Assembly: GCA_020541345.1 (NCBI GenBank)
Contig: CP045239.1
Location: forward strand, 620,001-684,000
DNA from: Candidatus Ecksteinia adelgidicola
GTDB lineage: Bacteria; Pseudomonadota; Gammaproteobacteria; Enterobacterales; Enterobacteriaceae
Direction: 5' to 3'
DNA length: 64,000 nt
Of the stretch, positions 13,786-23,689 are shown one piece after another. The position numbers and the translations under genes were made by a program. Position 1 is the first letter of the stretch; the number at the start of each line of letters is the position of its first letter. The notes under the pieces are model-generated. The model ran no database searches, had not been told where the DNA came from, and saw nothing but the letters and a program-made list of their open reading frames with translations.

Positions 13786-14718
13786 TTATATCTTTAAATC
13801 AAAAAATTTTTTAGCTTTTATTACATCATGAGTTATTTGTTCTTTTAACTGATTAATCGAACTAAAACATTGTTCATTTCGTAATTTTTTAAGAAAAGTT
13901 ACATTAATATGATATCCATAAAAATTTTTATTAATATTTAATAAGTGGACTTCTAACTGATAATGTTTACTATAAAAAGTTGGCCTAATTCCAATATTAG
14001 CTACACCAGGTAAAGAATGAGAACTAAGACCAGAAACATTCACTATATACACACCTTGTACAGGTGGTCCTGAGTATTTTAGTAAAATATTAATAGTAGG
14101 AAAACCAATAATACTCGCTAATTTATTTCCATGTACTATTCGACCAGAAATACTATATTCATGACCTAGCAAGTGCTCTGCTAGTAGTAAAGAGTCAGAA
14201 GTTAGTGCATTTCGAATTTCAGTACTACTAATGCGATCATTGTTTTCTTTGTAAGTTAAAACTTTTATTACTTTAAAATCATATTTTTGTCCAGCTTTTT
14301 CTAATAGTGTAGCATTTCCTTGTCGACCAGATCCAAAACGAAAATCATCTCCGATTATCAATAAATTAATTTTTAATTTCTTTACTAAAAATTTAATAAT
14401 GAAACATTCTACACTACAAATTGCAAGCTTTAAATTAAATTTTATGCACAGAACATAATCTATATTAGACTTTTTTAGATATTTTAATTTGTCACGAAAA
14501 TATGTAATTCGGGTTGGCACATTCTTTTTTTTTAATATTTCTAGCGGTTGTGGTTCAAAAATCATAACCATTACGGGTAAATTTAAACGTTTTCCTTCTT
14601 TTTTTAATTTTTCTAATACTGCTTGATGTCCTCGATGTACACCATCAAAATTACCAATAGTAAGAACACAACCACGATGGTATTTTTTAATATTGTAGAC
14701 ACCACGAATTAACTTCAT
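13786..14718 (-). CDS. ribF: Bifunctional riboflavin kinase / FAD synthetase
   Basis: Converts riboflavin to FMN and FMN to FAD. The 310 residues (313 in E. coli) have the N-terminal nucleotidyltransferase domain with T-I-G-N-F-D-G-V-H-R-G-H near 21-32 and S-S-T-E-I-R-N-A-L near 165, and the C-terminal flavokinase domain with G-N-K-L-A-S-I-I-G-F-P-T near 195-210 and G-V-Y near 220. Upstream, where E. coli has the divergent rpsT, there is no gene. No Shine-Dalgarno is obvious. Confidence 0.97.
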   Translation of the reverse strand: MKLIRGVYNIKKYHRGCVLTIGNFDGVHRGHQAVLEKLKKEGKRLNLPVMVMIFEPQPLEILKKKNVPTRITYFRDKLKYLKKSNIDYVLCIKFNLKLAICSVECFIIKFLVKKLKINLLIIGDDFRFGSGRQGNATLLEKAGQKYDFKVIKVLTYKENNDRISSTEIRNALTSDSLLLAEHLLGHEYSISGRIVHGNKLASIIGFPTINILLKYSGPPVQGVYIVNVSGLSSHSLPGVANIGIRPTFYSKHYQLEVHLLNINKNFYGYHINVTFLKKLRNEQCFSSINQLKEQITHDVIKAKKFFDLKI

Positions 14719-17700
14719 AATAATAAAAAGATTATATGTTGCATATAAGTATACAGAGCGTTATCCATGATAGTTTTTTTCTTTAAGTAAAATACATTTC
14801 TATTTAAAATATCTATAATTACAATCTTAATAATTTGTTTTAGAATATAATGTACATCTTATCTAAATTGATTTATATTCATAATAGTATAATAATGCAT
14901 CAGATATAAATTATTCATATCAAATATTAATTTATATTTTATTTTTTCCTGCATACTTAATAAAAATTTAGTATTAAATCATATAATAAAAAACATTCTA
15001 ATAAACATATAATAATTATAATATATTTCATATTATTATTTTATAAAATTAAAATATTTAACATAATTTTTTAAAATATAATAAATATTAATGTCAAATT
15101 TTTATATTTCATACTTTATGTATTAGATTAAATAACAAAAAATTTTTAGATATAATAAATGATTATTTTTAATATTAAATTAAAATATAGTATTATAAAC
15201 TATTTCAAAAAAAATACATCTAATTTTTTATACATTTTTAATAAATAATAATAATCTTTTATGATTGTCATGTTTTTTAATTTTATAAAAATATTTTTTT
15301 AATATGTCTATAGTTTTGAATAAGGTTTTAAATTTGTCTCAAATTATATAATATTAACAAAATAATAAATTTGTTATAAAATTGTTTCAATGTGTTTCAA
15401 ACACAAGATTTTTATGTTGTTTTTAATTAAAATATTTTATTATAATTAAATATATAACGCGATTTATATTAAAAATATATTTTATAATATATAAAAAAAA
15501 TAGTTTATAAATTATCAATTTATTATAATTAACATTTTTATATTGATACTTGAACTAGTATAATTCATGTCATCTTTTTTATTTATCAATATTTTATTAG
15601 AAATAATTTGTTAAGTTATTAGATTATATGTGGATTATGTATCACAATTTATTAAAGATTTATAAGTTTTCTTAACATTTATCTCAAAGATGACAGATTT
15701 TATTTTATACTATATAAAATAAAAATATTAATATAGTTTTTTTAATTTTTTTATTATTTTTCATTTATTCTTTCTAATATAAAATTTTTTATAAATTTTA
15801 TATAGATGTGTGAAATGCACATGTATTTAATCAATTGTCTTTTTGTTTTTAATAAAGTAATAAATAAATAAAAAAATAAATGTATTTTAAAATTATTATA
15901 AAATAAAATTTAATATTTTTTTTAAACTATTTTTTCTATTTTTTTATTTTCATAGATCATTTATTTATTATAACATGCTATCAATATGAGTGTATCTCCT
16001 ATAATTATTTTTTAATATGATAATATAGTAAAAATTATACTCTTCAATTACAATTAATATAATTATTAAACGTATAGTTTATAAAAATAGCTAAAATATA
16101 AGAAATAAATAACATTTGTAAAATGTATTTAAAACATTTTTAGTATAAATTTTATAAATATTTAACAGTTAATTAATTATAGTATTCAACAGTTAATTAA
16201 TTGTAATTTATAATTAATTGTAATTTGTAATTAAGATAAAAATTACTTTTATCTATAAAAAAATTGATTAAAAATAATAAACATAAATATACTATCATAA
16301 ATAAAAAATAAAATATGAAAATATTTTTTAATTTTAATCTATTTTTTATTAAAATAAAATTATTATTAGTTGTTATTTTTATAACATCATCAATATTTTT
16401 AAAAATTTAAATGATGTTTATTTTTTTATAAATTAATATATTTTAGTATTTGATCTAATTATTATAATATAGTTATATAAAATTATATATATTTATTTCA
16501 TATTATCTTATTTAATATATTTACAATTTTAAAAAAACTTTTTATTAAAAAAAATATTATTTTTTAAGATAAAATGTTTATAACATTAATTTAAAGAATA
16601 TTTCTCAATTAGAATATTCAATAAAAATATGTTATGAAATTAATTACGTTAAAAATTATCAAATAAAATGGACATAATTAAAAAACTAAACATAAAATAT
16701 AATATAAATTTTTTTATTAAATCTCATTCATACTTAATGAGAATAAATACATTTAAATATAAGTTTCATACTAATAATCATCAAGTCATTCTCTTTGTTA
16801 TATAATTAATTATATTTTTTTTTAAAAAAATTCAAATATTTATATGTTATTAAACATTTTTATTGAATTTATAAAATTAATTATTAAAAATAGATATTAT
16901 ATTATAATTATAATATAATATTTGAATTAATAAAAAATTTTTTAATAGTATTAATACATAAAATATTAATTATGTTACTATAATTAATAAAATTTTAATT
17001 TTATTAAAAAAAAATCAAAACAAAAAAATAATTTTAACTAAAAAAATAATCGTGTATCTTTTATATATATTAAAATATATATATTTCTTTTGTTATTATC
17101 TAAAAAAATACTATTTTATTTTTAAAATTATATTTTTATTTTTAAACAAAATTTTTAATAATTGGGTTTTTATTAAATATTTGTTTGTTTATTCAAAGAA
17201 TAATTTACCTTATTTATTTATATACATTATTCTCGTCATTATAAAATCAATATAAAAAAATAATAAAATAAATTAAAATAATATATAATATCAAATTAAA
17301 TTTTTTATAACAAATAATACAATATCTATTGTGAATTATTTATAACAACATACTAAATTATAATTGATAAATATTATCTTTTATTACATTTAATATAATA
17401 TCTATACTTAACAAATATATTTAATTAATAAATAACTTTTATAATAATGATGTAACATATAACACTACTATAATAAAAATTTTAATATTTTTTGTTTTAT
17501 ATTAATGTTACTGTATTAATTAAAAAATTACTTTTAATAAAAATTTTTAAAATTTAAATAACATTTTATTGCAACTAATGGGAGTATAAAAATAGTTATG
17601 ATAAAAAATTTTACTTATTTTTTTAAGAAATTTGTATTTAGTTACTGATATTGTTGTATTTATTTTGTTAATTATAATCATATTATATATTTTTTTATAT

Positions 17701-18445
17701 AGTTACATAAATTACTAATAGTAAAGTTACTTAACTAATGAATAATAATACAATTATAGTAAATACACGAAGTTATAATGAATTTAATATGAAGTATTTA
17801 ACTAATAGTATTTATTTAAATAACTATGATATAAAATTAATAATTTTAATCAGTTAAAAAAATATAAGTCAAGAATAATTATTATAGTGTTTTATGAATA
17901 GTATTATATTATGTCGATCAATAAAGCTTCTTAATAAATATGATTTTAAAAAATGTTTTTATTTTAAAATTAGATATGAATAGATAGAATAATGATCACT
18001 TACTTTTCGTAAGTTGTAAAAAAGTTACATATGATATTTAAAAGTATAATTTACAATCAATTTTAATATTTATAAAATAATGTTCAATTATATTTAAAAT
18101 ATTTAATTAAAAGTAAAGCTTTTTTTAATTTTTAAGATTCAATATCTAAGGTATTTATTATTTATTAAGATTGTTAAAAAATATTGATTATATTATTAAA
18201 ATTTTAATACAATTAATCATTATATTATTAGTTTTTATATTATTAATTATTAGATGATAAAAAAAATTGTATATTAAATTTATACCAAGTAATAAGTAAA
18301 TTATTTTAATAAATACAATGGTTTTATTAAAAAAACGTTACAATGTTAAATTAAAAAAATATTATACAAATGTTAAAAAACAAAAAACAACTTTTTAAAT
18401 TTATCGTATTTATTTCAAAGATATTTCTTTTAAAATATAAAATAT
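14719..18445. other. Gene-free AT-rich stretch
   Basis: No intact gene or RNA is seen. Small signals: a 10-bp inverted repeat TGTCATCTTT/AAAGATGACA (15568-15577, 15687-15696), a 15-nt direct repeat of period 24 (16164-16202), a 7-bp hairpin TCTCATT/AATGAGA near 16722-16742, and a hairpin ACTTAC/GTAAGT near 17998-18014. The last few hundred bases should be the secB body by position. The frame at 17052-17255 is low-complexity noise. Confidence 0.55.
16164..16202. repeat. 15-nt direct repeat, period 24
   Basis: AACAGTTAATTAATT at 16164-16178 recurs at 16188-16202. It is a short duplication inside gene-free DNA. Confidence 0.8.
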
Positions 18446-18524
18446 ACCTTATCTTTTTAAAAAAAAGAACATAACAAAGATATCACATTCGATTTAAATA
18501 CTATTATTTATATCTTAACTAACT
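18446..18524 (+). pseudogene. secB: Decayed secB 3' end
   Basis: Plus-strand codons read T-L-S-F-stop (18446-18460), then, after seven extra bases, N-I-T-K (18468-18479), then a frame-shifted F-D, then L-L-F-I-S-stop-L (18501-18521). This is the order of the SecB C-terminus [20 protein letters not shown], with stops at a Leu (TTA) and a Tyr codon. SecB is the export chaperone that hands preproteins to SecA. In E. coli secB-gpsA-cysE form an operon, and decayed gpsA and broken cysE follow here on the same strand. Confidence 0.55.
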
Positions 18525-18582
18525 ATAACATGTATAAAGTAATATTATGTTAGTCACCGTAAATATATCTTTCGATAAAAAG

Positions 18583-18627
18583 ATTTTTTTATATAAGATA
18601 CAATAAGAAAGTATTTTTTTATATAAG
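18583..18627. repeat. 15-nt direct repeat, period 30
   Basis: ATTTTTTTATATAAG occurs at 18583-18597 and 18613-18627, in the 5' part of the gpsA fossil. Probably a slippage duplication. Confidence 0.75.
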
Positions 18628-18639
18628 GTATCAAAAAAA

Positions 18640-19550
18640 ACAGCTAGTGCATTATTGAAATATATGCTGTCTAAATATTTTATTCTCTTATACACGAGAG
18701 TATATTTCAAATCTTGTTTTTCGTGGTATATTTCTACAACTAAATTTATTACTAGTAAATTTTTATGAAATATTTATGAAGAATTCAAAAAAAAAGATAA
18801 ATAACAACAATTCTAAAAAATTTTAATAAAAATAAATAAACCATCATGAATGTCTTAAAATAACTATTAACCTTAGTTCATGTAGCATAATATGAATAAT
18901 CATGAGAGAATCAAATACTTTTAAAGTAGTACATATAAAGACATAATTTTATGAATATAAAACAATTAAAGAAACATAATTATCATAATAATTTGTTTTT
19001 AATATAAATTTTTTCTATTTATCTTTTTTTTAAATTAAATTTTTTATATATTATATTTAAATGATCATACATTAATAATTCTACTAAATTATACATTGTT
19101 AACGTACACTGCGCCAGTATAGAACAACTATAGTTACTATTAGCACTTAAATATCTCATAGACTCAATATAAAATTATTAATATAAAAAATTATGTTTAT
19201 TTATTAAGATGTAAAATAGCTATCTTAAATATAAGATTAAATACTAATTTATTAATATCAATGATCAATAGTAAGATTAAGATATTTATTTCTCACTTGA
19301 ATTAATTATAAATTAAAAAATTATTAATAAAATATTGCGTTAAAATAAGATTAAATAACATAAAATTCTTTTCAAAGAAAATTCATAAGATGATTAAAAA
19401 ATATTTTAATATTAAATAAATATTAATTTTATCAAAACGTTATAACATAAAATAAGAATTTATAAATAAATGTATCAAATTTTATACTATAATAAAAAAT
19501 ATTAATAAAAAGTATTCAATCTACTTAGGTATATAAAAAAACAAAAAAAT
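18640..19550 (+). pseudogene. gpsA: Decayed gpsA (glycerol-3-phosphate dehydrogenase)
   Basis: Four anchors occur in the right order on the plus strand. (1) 18640-18696: T-A-S-A, then M-L-S-K and I-L-L-Y, like G-T-A-L-A and L-A-R-N-G-H-E-V-V-L-W. (2) Near 18870: CCTTAGTTCATGT, like codons for P-S-H-V with two extra T. (3) 19111-19170: a GC-richer patch with TTAGC and AAATATCTC, like the conserved N-A-R-T-A-L-I-T-R-G-L-A-E-M-S-R. (4) 19452-19529: R-I-Y-K-stop-M-Y-Q-I-L-Y, like P-I-T-E-E-I-Y-Q-V-L-Y, followed by L-L at the right distance. Many indels and stops. GpsA makes sn-glycerol-3-phosphate for phospholipids. It lies directly before cysE as in E. coli. Confidence 0.65.
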
Positions 19551-19571
19551 TATTATGCTTTTAATTATAAA

Positions 19572-19606
19572 ATACTATTCGCATAGTAGTATACTGGCTC
19601 CAGTAT
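19572..19606 (+). promoter_or_regulatory. Two adjacent inverted repeats upstream of cysE
   Basis: ATACTA...TAGTAT (19572-19592) is followed by ATACTGG-CT-CCAGTAT (19591-19606), a perfect 7-bp palindrome around a 2-base centre. They sit 66-100 bp before the cysE start and are richer in G and C than the surroundings. They could be remains of an operator, an mRNA processing hairpin between gpsA and cysE, or chance. Confidence 0.35.
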
Positions 19607-19671
19607 TATCAATAAAGGATCATATTACTTTTAGTTAAATGATCTATTTAACGATACTATAGAGGAATATA

Positions 19672-20440
19672 ATGTTGAAAAAATTAAAAAAAGTTTGGAA
19701 TAGTATTCAATCAGAAGCAGTTATTTTAGTTGATCGTGAAGTAATCTTATCTAATTTTTTTTATGATAGAATTTTAAAACATAAAAATTTAAGTAATGCA
19801 CTAAGTTATATTTTATCTAATAAATTAAAAAATACAATGATGCCAGCTAATTCAATGCGTAACGTAATAAAAGATATTTATTTAAACAATAAAAATATTA
19901 TTTTATCTGCAGTAAGTGACATTTTAGCAGTACATTCCCGTGATCCAGTTATAAAACAATACTCTTACTCCTTTATTATACCTAAAAAGATTTCATGCTC
20001 TTCAAGCATATCGTATTAGTCATTGGCTATGGTCAAATAATCGAGAAGAGTTAGCAGTTTATATACAAAATAAAATTTCATCTTCTTTTGGTGTAGACAT
20101 TCACCCTGCAGCTATTATTGGTTCTGGTATTATTATTGATCACGCTACTAGTATTATTATTGGCGACACTACAGTTATTGAAAACAATGTCTCTATTTTA
20201 CATTCTGTAACTTTAGGTAGTACCGGTAAGATGAGAGGGGATCGTCATCCAAAAATTCGAGAAAACGTAATAATTGGTGCTGGAGCAAAAATTCTTGGTA
20301 ACATCTAAATAGGGAAAAATGCAAAAATTGGAGCTGGATCTGTTGTTTTAAAAGATGTTCCTGCTGATAGTACTGCTGTTGGCGTACCAGCTCGCATTAT
20401 TCATCATCTAAAAAATAAAGAAAGAATTAATAAATATTAA
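19672..20440 (+). pseudogene. cysE: Serine acetyltransferase, broken by a frameshift and a nonsense codon
   Basis: CysE acetylates L-serine to O-acetylserine, the committed step of cysteine synthesis. The N-terminal domain reads well from ATG 19672 (GAGG box upstream) to about residue 97, ending Q-Y-S. One extra T near 19965-19966 then shifts the frame; shifting by +1 restores T-P-L-L-Y-L-K-R-F-H-A-L-Q-A-Y-R, matching E. coli. The hexapeptide-repeat acetyltransferase domain then runs intact (V-D-I-H-P-A-A, D-H-A-T, G-D-R-H-P-K-I) until TAA at 20306-20308, inside G-N-I-stop-I-G where E. coli has Glu (GAA to TAA). The frame continues V-G-V-P-A-R-I-I to TAA at 20438-20440. High residual identity marks recent inactivation. 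Confidence 0.93.
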
Positions 20441-22627
20441 TAAATGTTTTCATAAAAATAATAATGGTTTTAAATATAATGATAACATCTATTGTTTTTA
20501 TTTTTAGAAATTTTATAATATTTATAGATAAGTTTTAATATTGATAATTAGAAATTATATATATTTAATAGTTACTTAATGTTTAAAATATTTTATTAAT
20601 CGTAATTAAAAGAAAATAATCAGTATAATTAATTTTAAAAAAACATCAAAAATAATTATTAATGTTAAATATATGAATAAATATTTTTATAATTTTAATA
20701 AAATTTATTATTCTTTTTAATAAATAATAAAAACGTAATAATAAATTATGTAAACTATGTAATTATATTATTTATCTAAAAATAAAAAATTTTGACTTGT
20801 AAATAAGTATTATTAACGTTAATATTACATTTATTAAATATTAAGATATAGTAATTTATCTTGTTCATTTTTTAAAATATTTATATTGATTAATATAGCT
20901 ATAAAATTTTTGTTATAAAAATTTGTAGTAAATGTTATTGTAAAATGTACAATATAAATTTTTATTTTATAAACTTATTACAAACACTATCAAATATTTT
21001 TATTAAATATATCATTTATATTAATAAAAATATAATGTTAAATATTATAACATTACTAAAATATAACAAATACTTTATTAAATACTATTATTAAACATAA
21101 TTTTAATAAAAAATAAAGTATATTAATTAAAGTTTATTATTTAAATTACAATTTTTATTATATTATAAACATTTGTAAATGTTTATACATAGTCTATTAT
21201 ATATAACAATAAAAATACATATTCTATAACAAAAATGGAATTTATTATACAACAAATATAAGTAAAATTTTTATATTGTGAATAAATATTTTAAAATATA
21301 TTATTATCGTAACTATAGTTTTAATTATTTTTTTATTAATAGAAAAATGAATATTTTTTATAACATTTATACAAATTATTTAATTAATAATTAAATAAAA
21401 TAATAATTATTTATTAATGTGTAGTTTTTAATATTATAAAATAAGAATTTGACTTTATTATATTGTTGTTAGTATTTTAACATTATAAAATATGAATTTA
21501 TTAATATATTCAAATGCATTTTAATTTAATATTTCTTACTTTTTATATTAAAAAATTTTAATTTTATGTAAAATTAAACAAAATGTATTTACTTTATTTT
21601 CATATTATTAAATAATACTTTTATTTGATAAATAGTACAAATAAGATTTTAAAATTTTTTTATCAATAAAATATTATTAAATATTATATTTTAACGTAAT
21701 GATTATATTTTATTTTTTATTGAAATTTTATAGTCAGCATAATTTTTGTTGTTATTTTATTAGATACGTTTAAAAATTATTTTTTTTAAAATTTATAAAT
21801 TTTTTACTATGTTTTTATTAGAATTGTTATTTAAATTAATATATAATAACATTCGAATAAAATATTTTTAGTTTATTAATGCAACATATTATTAAGAATA
21901 ACAAAATTTAATTTGTTTTTAAAAAAAATTAAATTTTTTAATTGTAGTAATAACTATTAGTTATGTTATAATATTTATATTATAAAAATACACTATATAA
22001 AAAGCATTAATAATTTTATATTTTTATATATTGATCAATCAATACTAATTCAATAACTAAAATACTAAAATTTAATATTTTTAACAATATTAAAAAGTAT
22101 ATAATATATATAAATCTTTAATAATAATTATTATATGAAATATAAAATATGTAAGTATTATTTTAAATGTACAAGAATGTTTTTAAAAGTCATTTCGTTA
22201 ATTAATTAAATTATATATATATTTATATAATATTTTATTTAGATGATTTCAACAAAAATTATTAAAATTTTAATATAACATCGATATTATATTATTATAT
22301 TTTTATAAATTTTATTGCTCAACAAAATGTTAATAATATTAAATTTTTACATAAATTATTATAGATTTTTTAAAAAAAATATTATTAATCTTTATTTAAT
22401 TTTAAATATTTAAATTTTATTTAATGATATTTAGTTAAAACATAAATTATTTGTTGATATTAAATGTATAACATCGTTACTTTAAAAAAAACAATATTAC
22501 ATTATAAATATTTTATATTTTAAAAAAAGTATTTTATTTTTTATGATATATTAAAAAATTTTTTCATATTATAAAAAATTTAAATAATTTTATTTTAATA
22601 TAATGATTAATGTTCATTTACTTAAAT
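20441..22627. other. Gene-free AT-rich stretch
   Basis: I see no coding frame, RNA, terminator or repeat worth naming between the broken cysE and the 3' end of epmB. Confidence 0.6.
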
Positions 22628-23650
22628 TCATAAGTATAAATCAAGTGGAATTTTACTTGATTTTCCAGCTATTTCACGCATCAATCGAGGAACTAAATAA
22701 CCGGAAATTTTTCCTAACAAAGATTTCATAATAATTCTTGCTTGTTGATCATTAACTACAAAATGAGAAGTGCCTTGAACTTTGTCCAAAAGATGAATAT
22801 AATATGGAAGAATGCCAATATCGAATAATGCATTGCTTAATGTCGCTAATGTATCAGCGTTATCATTAACGCGATGAATTAATACGCTTTGATTTAGTAA
22901 TGTTATTTTTTTTAAACGCAATTTTTCTATAGCTATTTTTAATTCATCATTAATTTCATTAGCATGATTAATATGAGTAACTATAATCACTTGTAAATGT
23001 GATTTTGATAACCAATAACATAATTTTTTTGTAATACGCGCCGGAATCATTACTAATAAACGAGTATGAATTCTTAAACGTTTGATATGTGGAATATGTG
23101 ATAACTGAGTAATTAACCAACCTAATTCGTCATCTTTTGCCATTAATGGATCACCTCCAGAAAAAATAATTTCATTAATCGATGATTTTTTATGAATATA
23201 ATCTAATGCTTGTTTCCAATTAGATTTATTGCCTTGATGATTATGATATGGAAAATGACGGCGAAAACAATATCGACAATTAACAGCACATCCTCCTTTA
23301 ACTAAAAGCAAGACACGATTATAATATTTATGTAACAATCCTGGTACTACAATGTTACAATGCTCACTTAGCGGATCAAGAATAAAATCAGAAGCATTAA
23401 TGAATTCTTCTTGAGAAGTAATTACTTGACGAAATAATGGATCATCAGCATCACCAGGTCGCATACGTTCAACAAAACTATGTGGAACACGCATTGGAAA
23501 TAATTTACGAGCATTTCGACCTTTTAGAAACTCTGAATTCGTATTTAATAACAATATTTGTAGTAACTCATTAGGATCAGTAATAACATTTGAAAGTTGA
23601 TATAACCAATCTTTTTTATAAACTGTATTTTTTAATTTAATGTATGCCAT
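22628..23650 (-). CDS. epmB: EF-P-(R)-beta-lysylation lysine 2,3-aminomutase
   Basis: Radical-SAM, PLP-dependent aminomutase that makes (R)-beta-lysine, which EpmA attaches to Lys34 of EF-P. The radical-SAM cysteines appear in C-A-V-N-C-R-Y-C-F-R-R-H-F (residues 121, 125, 128), followed by I-F-S-G-G-D-P-L-M and the C-terminal Y-Y-I-H-L-L-D-K-V-Q-G. I start it at ATG 23650 (340 residues, M-A-Y-I like E. coli M-A-H-I) rather than the TTG four codons upstream. It is divergent from efp with 39 bp between them, as in E. coli, so the two share a control region. epmA is not in the window. Confidence 0.95.
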   Translation of the reverse strand: MAYIKLKNTVYKKDWLYQLSNVITDPNELLQILLLNTNSEFLKGRNARKLFPMRVPHSFVERMRPGDADDPLFRQVITSQEEFINASDFILDPLSEHCNIVVPGLLHKYYNRVLLLVKGGCAVNCRYCFRRHFPYHNHQGNKSNWKQALDYIHKKSSINEIIFSGGDPLMAKDDELGWLITQLSHIPHIKRLRIHTRLLVMIPARITKKLCYWLSKSHLQVIIVTHINHANEINDELKIAIEKLRLKKITLLNQSVLIHRVNDNADTLATLSNALFDIGILPYYIHLLDKVQGTSHFVVNDQQARIIMKSLLGKISGYLVPRLMREIAGKSSKIPLDLYL

Positions 23651-23689
23651 ATTTAAATTCAATCTTAATTAAAATGTTACAAGGTTGTT

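Follow-up and report, generated by a model that had tools for sequence, protein, structure and literature searches.

Probable in-place erosion of an ancestral yibN-grxC-secB-gpsA-cysE cluster, with late inactivation of cysE, in a reduced symbiont genome

The Locus and Its Setting

The window, a stretch of 64,000 nucleotides from Candidatus Ecksteinia adelgidicola, covers positions 620001-684000 in a genome that consists of one contig (980,458 bases) and is reduced, strongly AT-biased and apparently Serratia symbiotica-like. GC content in the window is 9.6-11.4% (0.096-0.114) in six non-coding stretches compared to 21.5-31.2% in 14 open genes, which were used as yardsticks and most of which were named by eye, without a search. 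A 2.8-kb block on the plus strand (17636-20440) comprises remnants of yibN, secB and gpsA followed by a nearly full-length cysE, and it is flanked by two genes on the minus strand, ribF (13786-14718) and epmB (22628-23662). The order of the genes is that of E. coli, and it is also the order in six Serratia and one Hafnia, which harbor the full yibN-grxC-secB-gpsA-cysE arrangement. The spacers at 14800-17600 and 20470-22600 are long, show about 10% GC and appear to represent the neutral floor of the genome. The features of the block are the following:

17636-18024, plus strand: yibN remnant (rhodanese-like protein), core 17702-18002, ends uncertain; stops and indels throughout
18025-18380, plus strand: place of grxC in relatives; GC 0.104, equal to the floor
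18381-18810, plus strand: secB remnant (export chaperone); 141 residues aligned, with 6 stops and some 20 indel events
18811-19592, plus strand: place of gpsA (glycerol-3-phosphate dehydrogenase), strongly decayed; outer limits set by the neighbours, not by alignment
19555-19671, plus strand: cysE 5' leader with a ribosome-binding-like sequence; GC-rich compared to the decayed DNA upstream
19672-20440, plus strand: cysE (serine O-acetyltransferase), apparently a recent pseudogene; frameshift near 19966, in-frame stop near 20306

Remnants of yibN, secB and gpsA

Remnants were searched for on both strands of 16501-19671 with nine neighbour-gene queries. Frameshift-tolerant alignment of yibN gave a score of 89.1, compared to maxima of 49.8 with 500 permuted queries and 48.7 with 500 shuffled DNAs, and the limits of the alignment differed by run (17636-18002 and 17702-18024). 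At the place of grxC (18025-18380) the profile score of 21.7 was matched by 123 of 200 shuffles; this query is short (83 residues) and hard to detect, and grxC may be gone or unreadable here. For secB, a search of the whole genome with the Pfam SecB family (PF02556) led to a sole place, 638452-638793 (window 18452-18793; E 7.8e-11, 41.5 bits against a cut-off of 26), where four in-frame stops mark a pseudogene and which is adjoined by a second, weaker SecB piece at window 18378-18482. The frameshift-tolerant alignment of secB (18381-18810) scored 168.9, far from the maxima obtained with 500 permuted queries (61.0) and 500 shuffles (66.3).

The gpsA remnant is the weakest claim of the block: it appears to be real, near the detection limit, and the bulk of the gene is unreadable. 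It is recognised by frameshift-tolerant alignment alone, best with a query from the same genus together with position. The Pfam GpsA C-terminal domain (PF07479) gave no match at the block in a search of the whole genome, its single match elsewhere (13.4 bits) being below the cut-off, and a profile of 32 GpsA sequences taken alone was borderline, with 5 of 200 shuffles as good. With GpsA of G001, a genome of the same genus, as query and the alignment held to the place expected from cysE, a score of 89.7 was obtained, whereas the two null sets averaged 38.8 (sd 8.6) and 38.3 (sd 8.1); neither the 500 permuted queries nor the 500 shuffles reached this banded score, and without the positional limit the score was reached by one of 500 permuted queries and by none of 500 shuffles. 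A preceding variant of the test, run at four band widths, had 0, 0, 1 and 0 of 300 shuffles as good as the G001 query, and 0 of 300 as good as a mixed profile at every width. The clearest stretch (19402-19526) corresponds to the C-terminal part in a collinear alignment with the G001 protein and lies close upstream of cysE.

An earlier note on this DNA had described heavily decayed secB and gpsA genes next to an almost intact cysE, all on the plus strand in E. coli order, and the frameshift-tolerant alignments agree with that description; SecB and GpsA both align significantly on the plus strand, with none of the 500 shuffle or 500 permutation controls as good (for GpsA, at the predicted place). 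Its boundaries require correction, since the secB remnant is present and starts at about 18381, not 18446, and the block extends further upstream to the yibN remnant. The note had also considered the whole operon to be preserved, which holds for the order of the secB, gpsA and cysE remnants but not for their completeness, most of gpsA being unreadable and grxC undetected.

cysE, a Recent Pseudogene With a Preserved Leader

None of secB, gpsA and cysE forms a single open reading frame, as stops and frameshifts are found in each. The two open pieces of cysE match the NCBIfam serine O-acetyltransferase family with E-values of 1.6e-30 and 2e-52, and the match to TIGR01172, reading through one TAA, has an E-value of 3.2e-65 (218.3 bits, cut-off 210.65). 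No other cysE in the genome is over that cut-off, all six further TIGR01172 matches being below it. The family consensus is matched at 157 of 243 aligned codons, and of the 121 residues shared by all of 11 open references 107 are kept; the stop and a residue past the limit of the alignment are among the remaining 14. Seven residues that we take to lie at or close to the active site are also kept. Compared within cysE itself, conserved G/C sites are kept at 43 of 80 positions in the N-terminal part and at 114 of 142 in the rest, and the lower N-terminal retention could reflect an earlier relaxation there. From these sequence features, cysE appears to have been inactivated recently by the frameshift and the stop.

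There is a small chance that cysE is still functional, that its frameshift and stop are sequencing or assembly errors and that only yibN, secB and gpsA are dead. GC content, codon pattern and conserved residues do resemble those of an intact gene, just two lesions separate it from one, and the yardstick genes provide no measure of the assembly error rate since they were chosen for being open. Nevertheless, long genes are open in this assembly, such as ileS (941 aa, with all residues matched in relatives) and, by eye, many ribosomal-protein reading frames; two errors in one gene of 770 bases would be a coincidence, and cysK, encoding the next enzyme after CysE, was not found in the genome.

The 5' leader of cysE stands out from its surroundings. 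Its last 79 bases (19593-19671) have a GC content of 0.266, whereas the maximum in 1228 overlapping non-coding slices is 0.241, and the leader of 117 bases aligns to that of S. symbiotica PERIS-14S with a score of 47.5, reached by none of 1000 shuffles and none of 218 overlapping non-coding slices. The gpsA DNA directly upstream is decayed and near the GC floor. Because the leader escaped decay and the gpsA DNA upstream of it did not, cysE and its own 5' region would have been under selection after gpsA was lost, which suggests that selection acted on cysE and its leader apart from the operon. A promoter scan was uninformative, with 40 promoter-like sites against 41.2 expected, and identified no promoter; the predicted RNA fold of the window's cysE leader does not stand out from shuffled sequence (z -0.98, with 31 of 200 shuffles folding as well). 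The earlier proposal that transcription may have been maintained for cysE alone thus gains indirect support from a GC-preserved, alignable leader and none from the promoter scan. The promoter and fold results would also suit a cysE that persisted as a slowly decaying stretch, without selection on cysE alone. We regard this as very unlikely, given that the adjoining gpsA DNA has come close to the GC floor whereas the leader and the gene have not.

In relatives, the spacers between gpsA and cysE fold strongly in E. coli, six Serratia and Hafnia (L001, L149-L155), although their sequences differ and the folds were computed without a shuffle control, whereas little or no fold is seen in others such as L011, L021 and L028. 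The folding spacers possibly act as an attenuator or terminator, according to these predictions. Rfam gave no match in this spacer at the E. coli, S. marcescens, Hafnia and PERIS-14S loci.

Relative Ages of the Losses

The GC contents of cysE at the three codon positions (0.406/0.332/0.129) are inside the range of the 14 open genes of the window. The fraction of GC excess left was estimated at 0.47 (0.17-0.78) for yibN, 0.51 (0.31-0.73) for secB and 0.25 (0.09-0.41) for gpsA, so that about half to three quarters of it is gone, under a clock that assumes the same neutral rate throughout and an initial excess derived by scaling from two other genomes. On this scale cysE has a value of 1.0 by construction, as it sets its own scale, and the independent evidence for its age comes from codon-position GC and from indels. 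Indel events per 100 aligned residues amount to 10.9 in yibN, 14.2 in secB and 14.3 in gpsA compared to 0.8 in cysE, the counts of the decayed genes being taken from cheap-gap alignments and inflated by alignment noise, in gpsA most of all; of the two events counted in cysE, one is no lesion but a gap of a single residue close to the start.

These data support at least two ages: yibN, secB and gpsA are old and cysE is much younger. The different ages of inactivation that had been proposed for this operon are thus upheld in the form of two classes. No finer order of loss among yibN, secB and gpsA can be given because their GC-excess intervals overlap, and a single shared early death of the three is compatible with the data. 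A joint death of all the genes upon loss of the operon promoter, with cysE looking younger through higher conservation, is highly improbable: the overlapping ages of the three old genes would fit one early event for those three, but cysE has an indel density 13 to 17 times lower (against noise-inflated counts), a coding pattern of GC over the codon positions and a preserved leader, and its place and leader also argue against a later copy acquired, for example, by transfer.

The retention of conserved G/C sites was also tried for dating the decayed genes and dropped, since shuffled DNA in local alignment scored higher than the remnants (0.36 compared to 0.27 for yibN, 0.58 to 0.49 for secB and 0.46 to 0.43 for gpsA); cysE alone was above its shuffles (0.71 compared to 0.57).

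Cysteine and Phospholipid Genes

No cysK candidate was obtained in the genome of the window, and G001, G006 and G009 gave no match either. A search for a cysK remnant beside ligA by tblastn gave ligA alone, and the alignment scores there were uninformative, as they tracked GC-rich genes. It appears that cysE outlived any detectable cysK, a reading that depends on no cysK remnant having been overlooked. We consider it conceivable, though rather improbable, that an orphan CysE was kept under selection after the loss of cysK, providing O-acetylserine for a co-resident symbiont or another use, and died recently. The S. symbiotica of Cinara cedri is listed as a cysteine maker and its partner Buchnera as unable to make it (PMC3213167), which makes a late retention of cysteine-related genes in the lineage plausible.

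The acyltransferase family of the plsB/plsC type (PF01553) has no match in the genome of the window at an E-value of 0.01 (one candidate was scored), unlike the other five of the six genomes searched. For glpK no match was found in this genome, nor in four of the five others searched. The membrane phospholipids of the organism may have their source elsewhere.

Interpretation

Genes of an operon are often handled as one unit of loss. The block is very probably an ancestral yibN-grxC-secB-gpsA-cysE cluster that is eroding in place and in which cysE was the last gene to be inactivated. The functions of yibN, secB and gpsA were lost earlier, exposing these genes to AT-biased substitution and indels, while cysE stayed coding for much longer, presumably under selection and along with roughly 100 bases of leader, before the frameshift and the stop arose. 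The stagger was presumably set function by function: SecB may be dispensable in small symbionts, gpsA would have become useless once the downstream phospholipid pathway was gone, and cysE might have been kept for the supply of O-acetylserine or cysteine up to the point at which the host or a partner met the need. The pattern of decay is ordinary reductive evolution, a known process, here well resolved. The interest of the locus is that gene deaths of two or more ages are seen side by side, one of them the recent death of a gene with a retained 5' leader, and that the order of loss can therefore be timed by GC and indel decay; its unusual point is a possible orphan cysE, outliving any detectable cysK.

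Comparison With Relatives and Known Systems

The IleS protein shows 69-71% identity to most of the Serratia listed and 67-69% to three S. symbiotica loci, among the best 80 of 311 matches and in a comparison that possibly left out records very near the window. Judged from this protein rather than from a species tree, the genome appears to be closest to Serratia among the named relatives found. SecB was matched in 33 of 40 genomes, the window's own included, and a match was lacking in all seven genomes of 0.5-0.7 Mb and in no others. In nine genomes searched for both genes, cysE had matches in two (G014 and G021) and gpsA in four (G001, G006, G009 and G014). G001 (650,317 bases) possesses an open gpsA without any secB or cysE match and looks like a mirror image of the window, with gpsA kept there and cysE the longest-lived here; taken together, the two genomes form a natural test, on a small scale, of the functions that are first to go in a dwindling symbiont. 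In G021 yibN adjoins cysE, gpsA and secB not being found, and in G006 yibN adjoins gpsA. The cluster was likewise reduced gene by gene in these two genomes, but there the lost genes leave no room, whereas the window keeps their remnants.

Of three named S. symbiotica, PERIS-14S and Sm Midelt carry a fragmented grxC and SCifornacula gives no grxC match; the secB and gpsA matches are full-length or nearly so in all three. A search for cysE in 30 genomes of the genus of Sm Midelt gave a match in every one, 28 of them over the cut-off; Sm Midelt is the sole one with stops in its match, and G054, below the cut-off, has a shorter match without stops. In Sm Midelt (2.5-Mb genome; L147 4124-4956), cysE contains several stops and frameshifts and was broken independently. 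In the metagenome-assembled PERIS-14S (L146, about 4069) it is otherwise open, with ATA in place of the usual ATG start. On the loci compared, the same cluster is evidently eroding along differing paths across relatives.

A literature search on S. symbiotica cysE, symbiont serine acetyltransferase and the gpsA/secB/cysE operon gave, as judged from the listings, nothing evidently on this block. Among known systems, the S. symbiotica SCc of Cinara cedri has a coding density of 38.7%, 58 identifiable pseudogenes and long AT-rich intergenic regions (PMC3213167). Like the organism of the window, it is a reduced symbiont of the Serratia lineage with long spacers that are regarded as former genes. 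The SCc spacers are reported to retain no trace of homology, while the remnants in the window are still readable in order; additionally, cysteine is listed there as synthesised, whereas in the genome studied here cysE is broken and cysK undetected. S. symbiotica STs-Pazieg (0.65 Mb) differs in that it is described as almost devoid of pseudogenes (PMC5013485).
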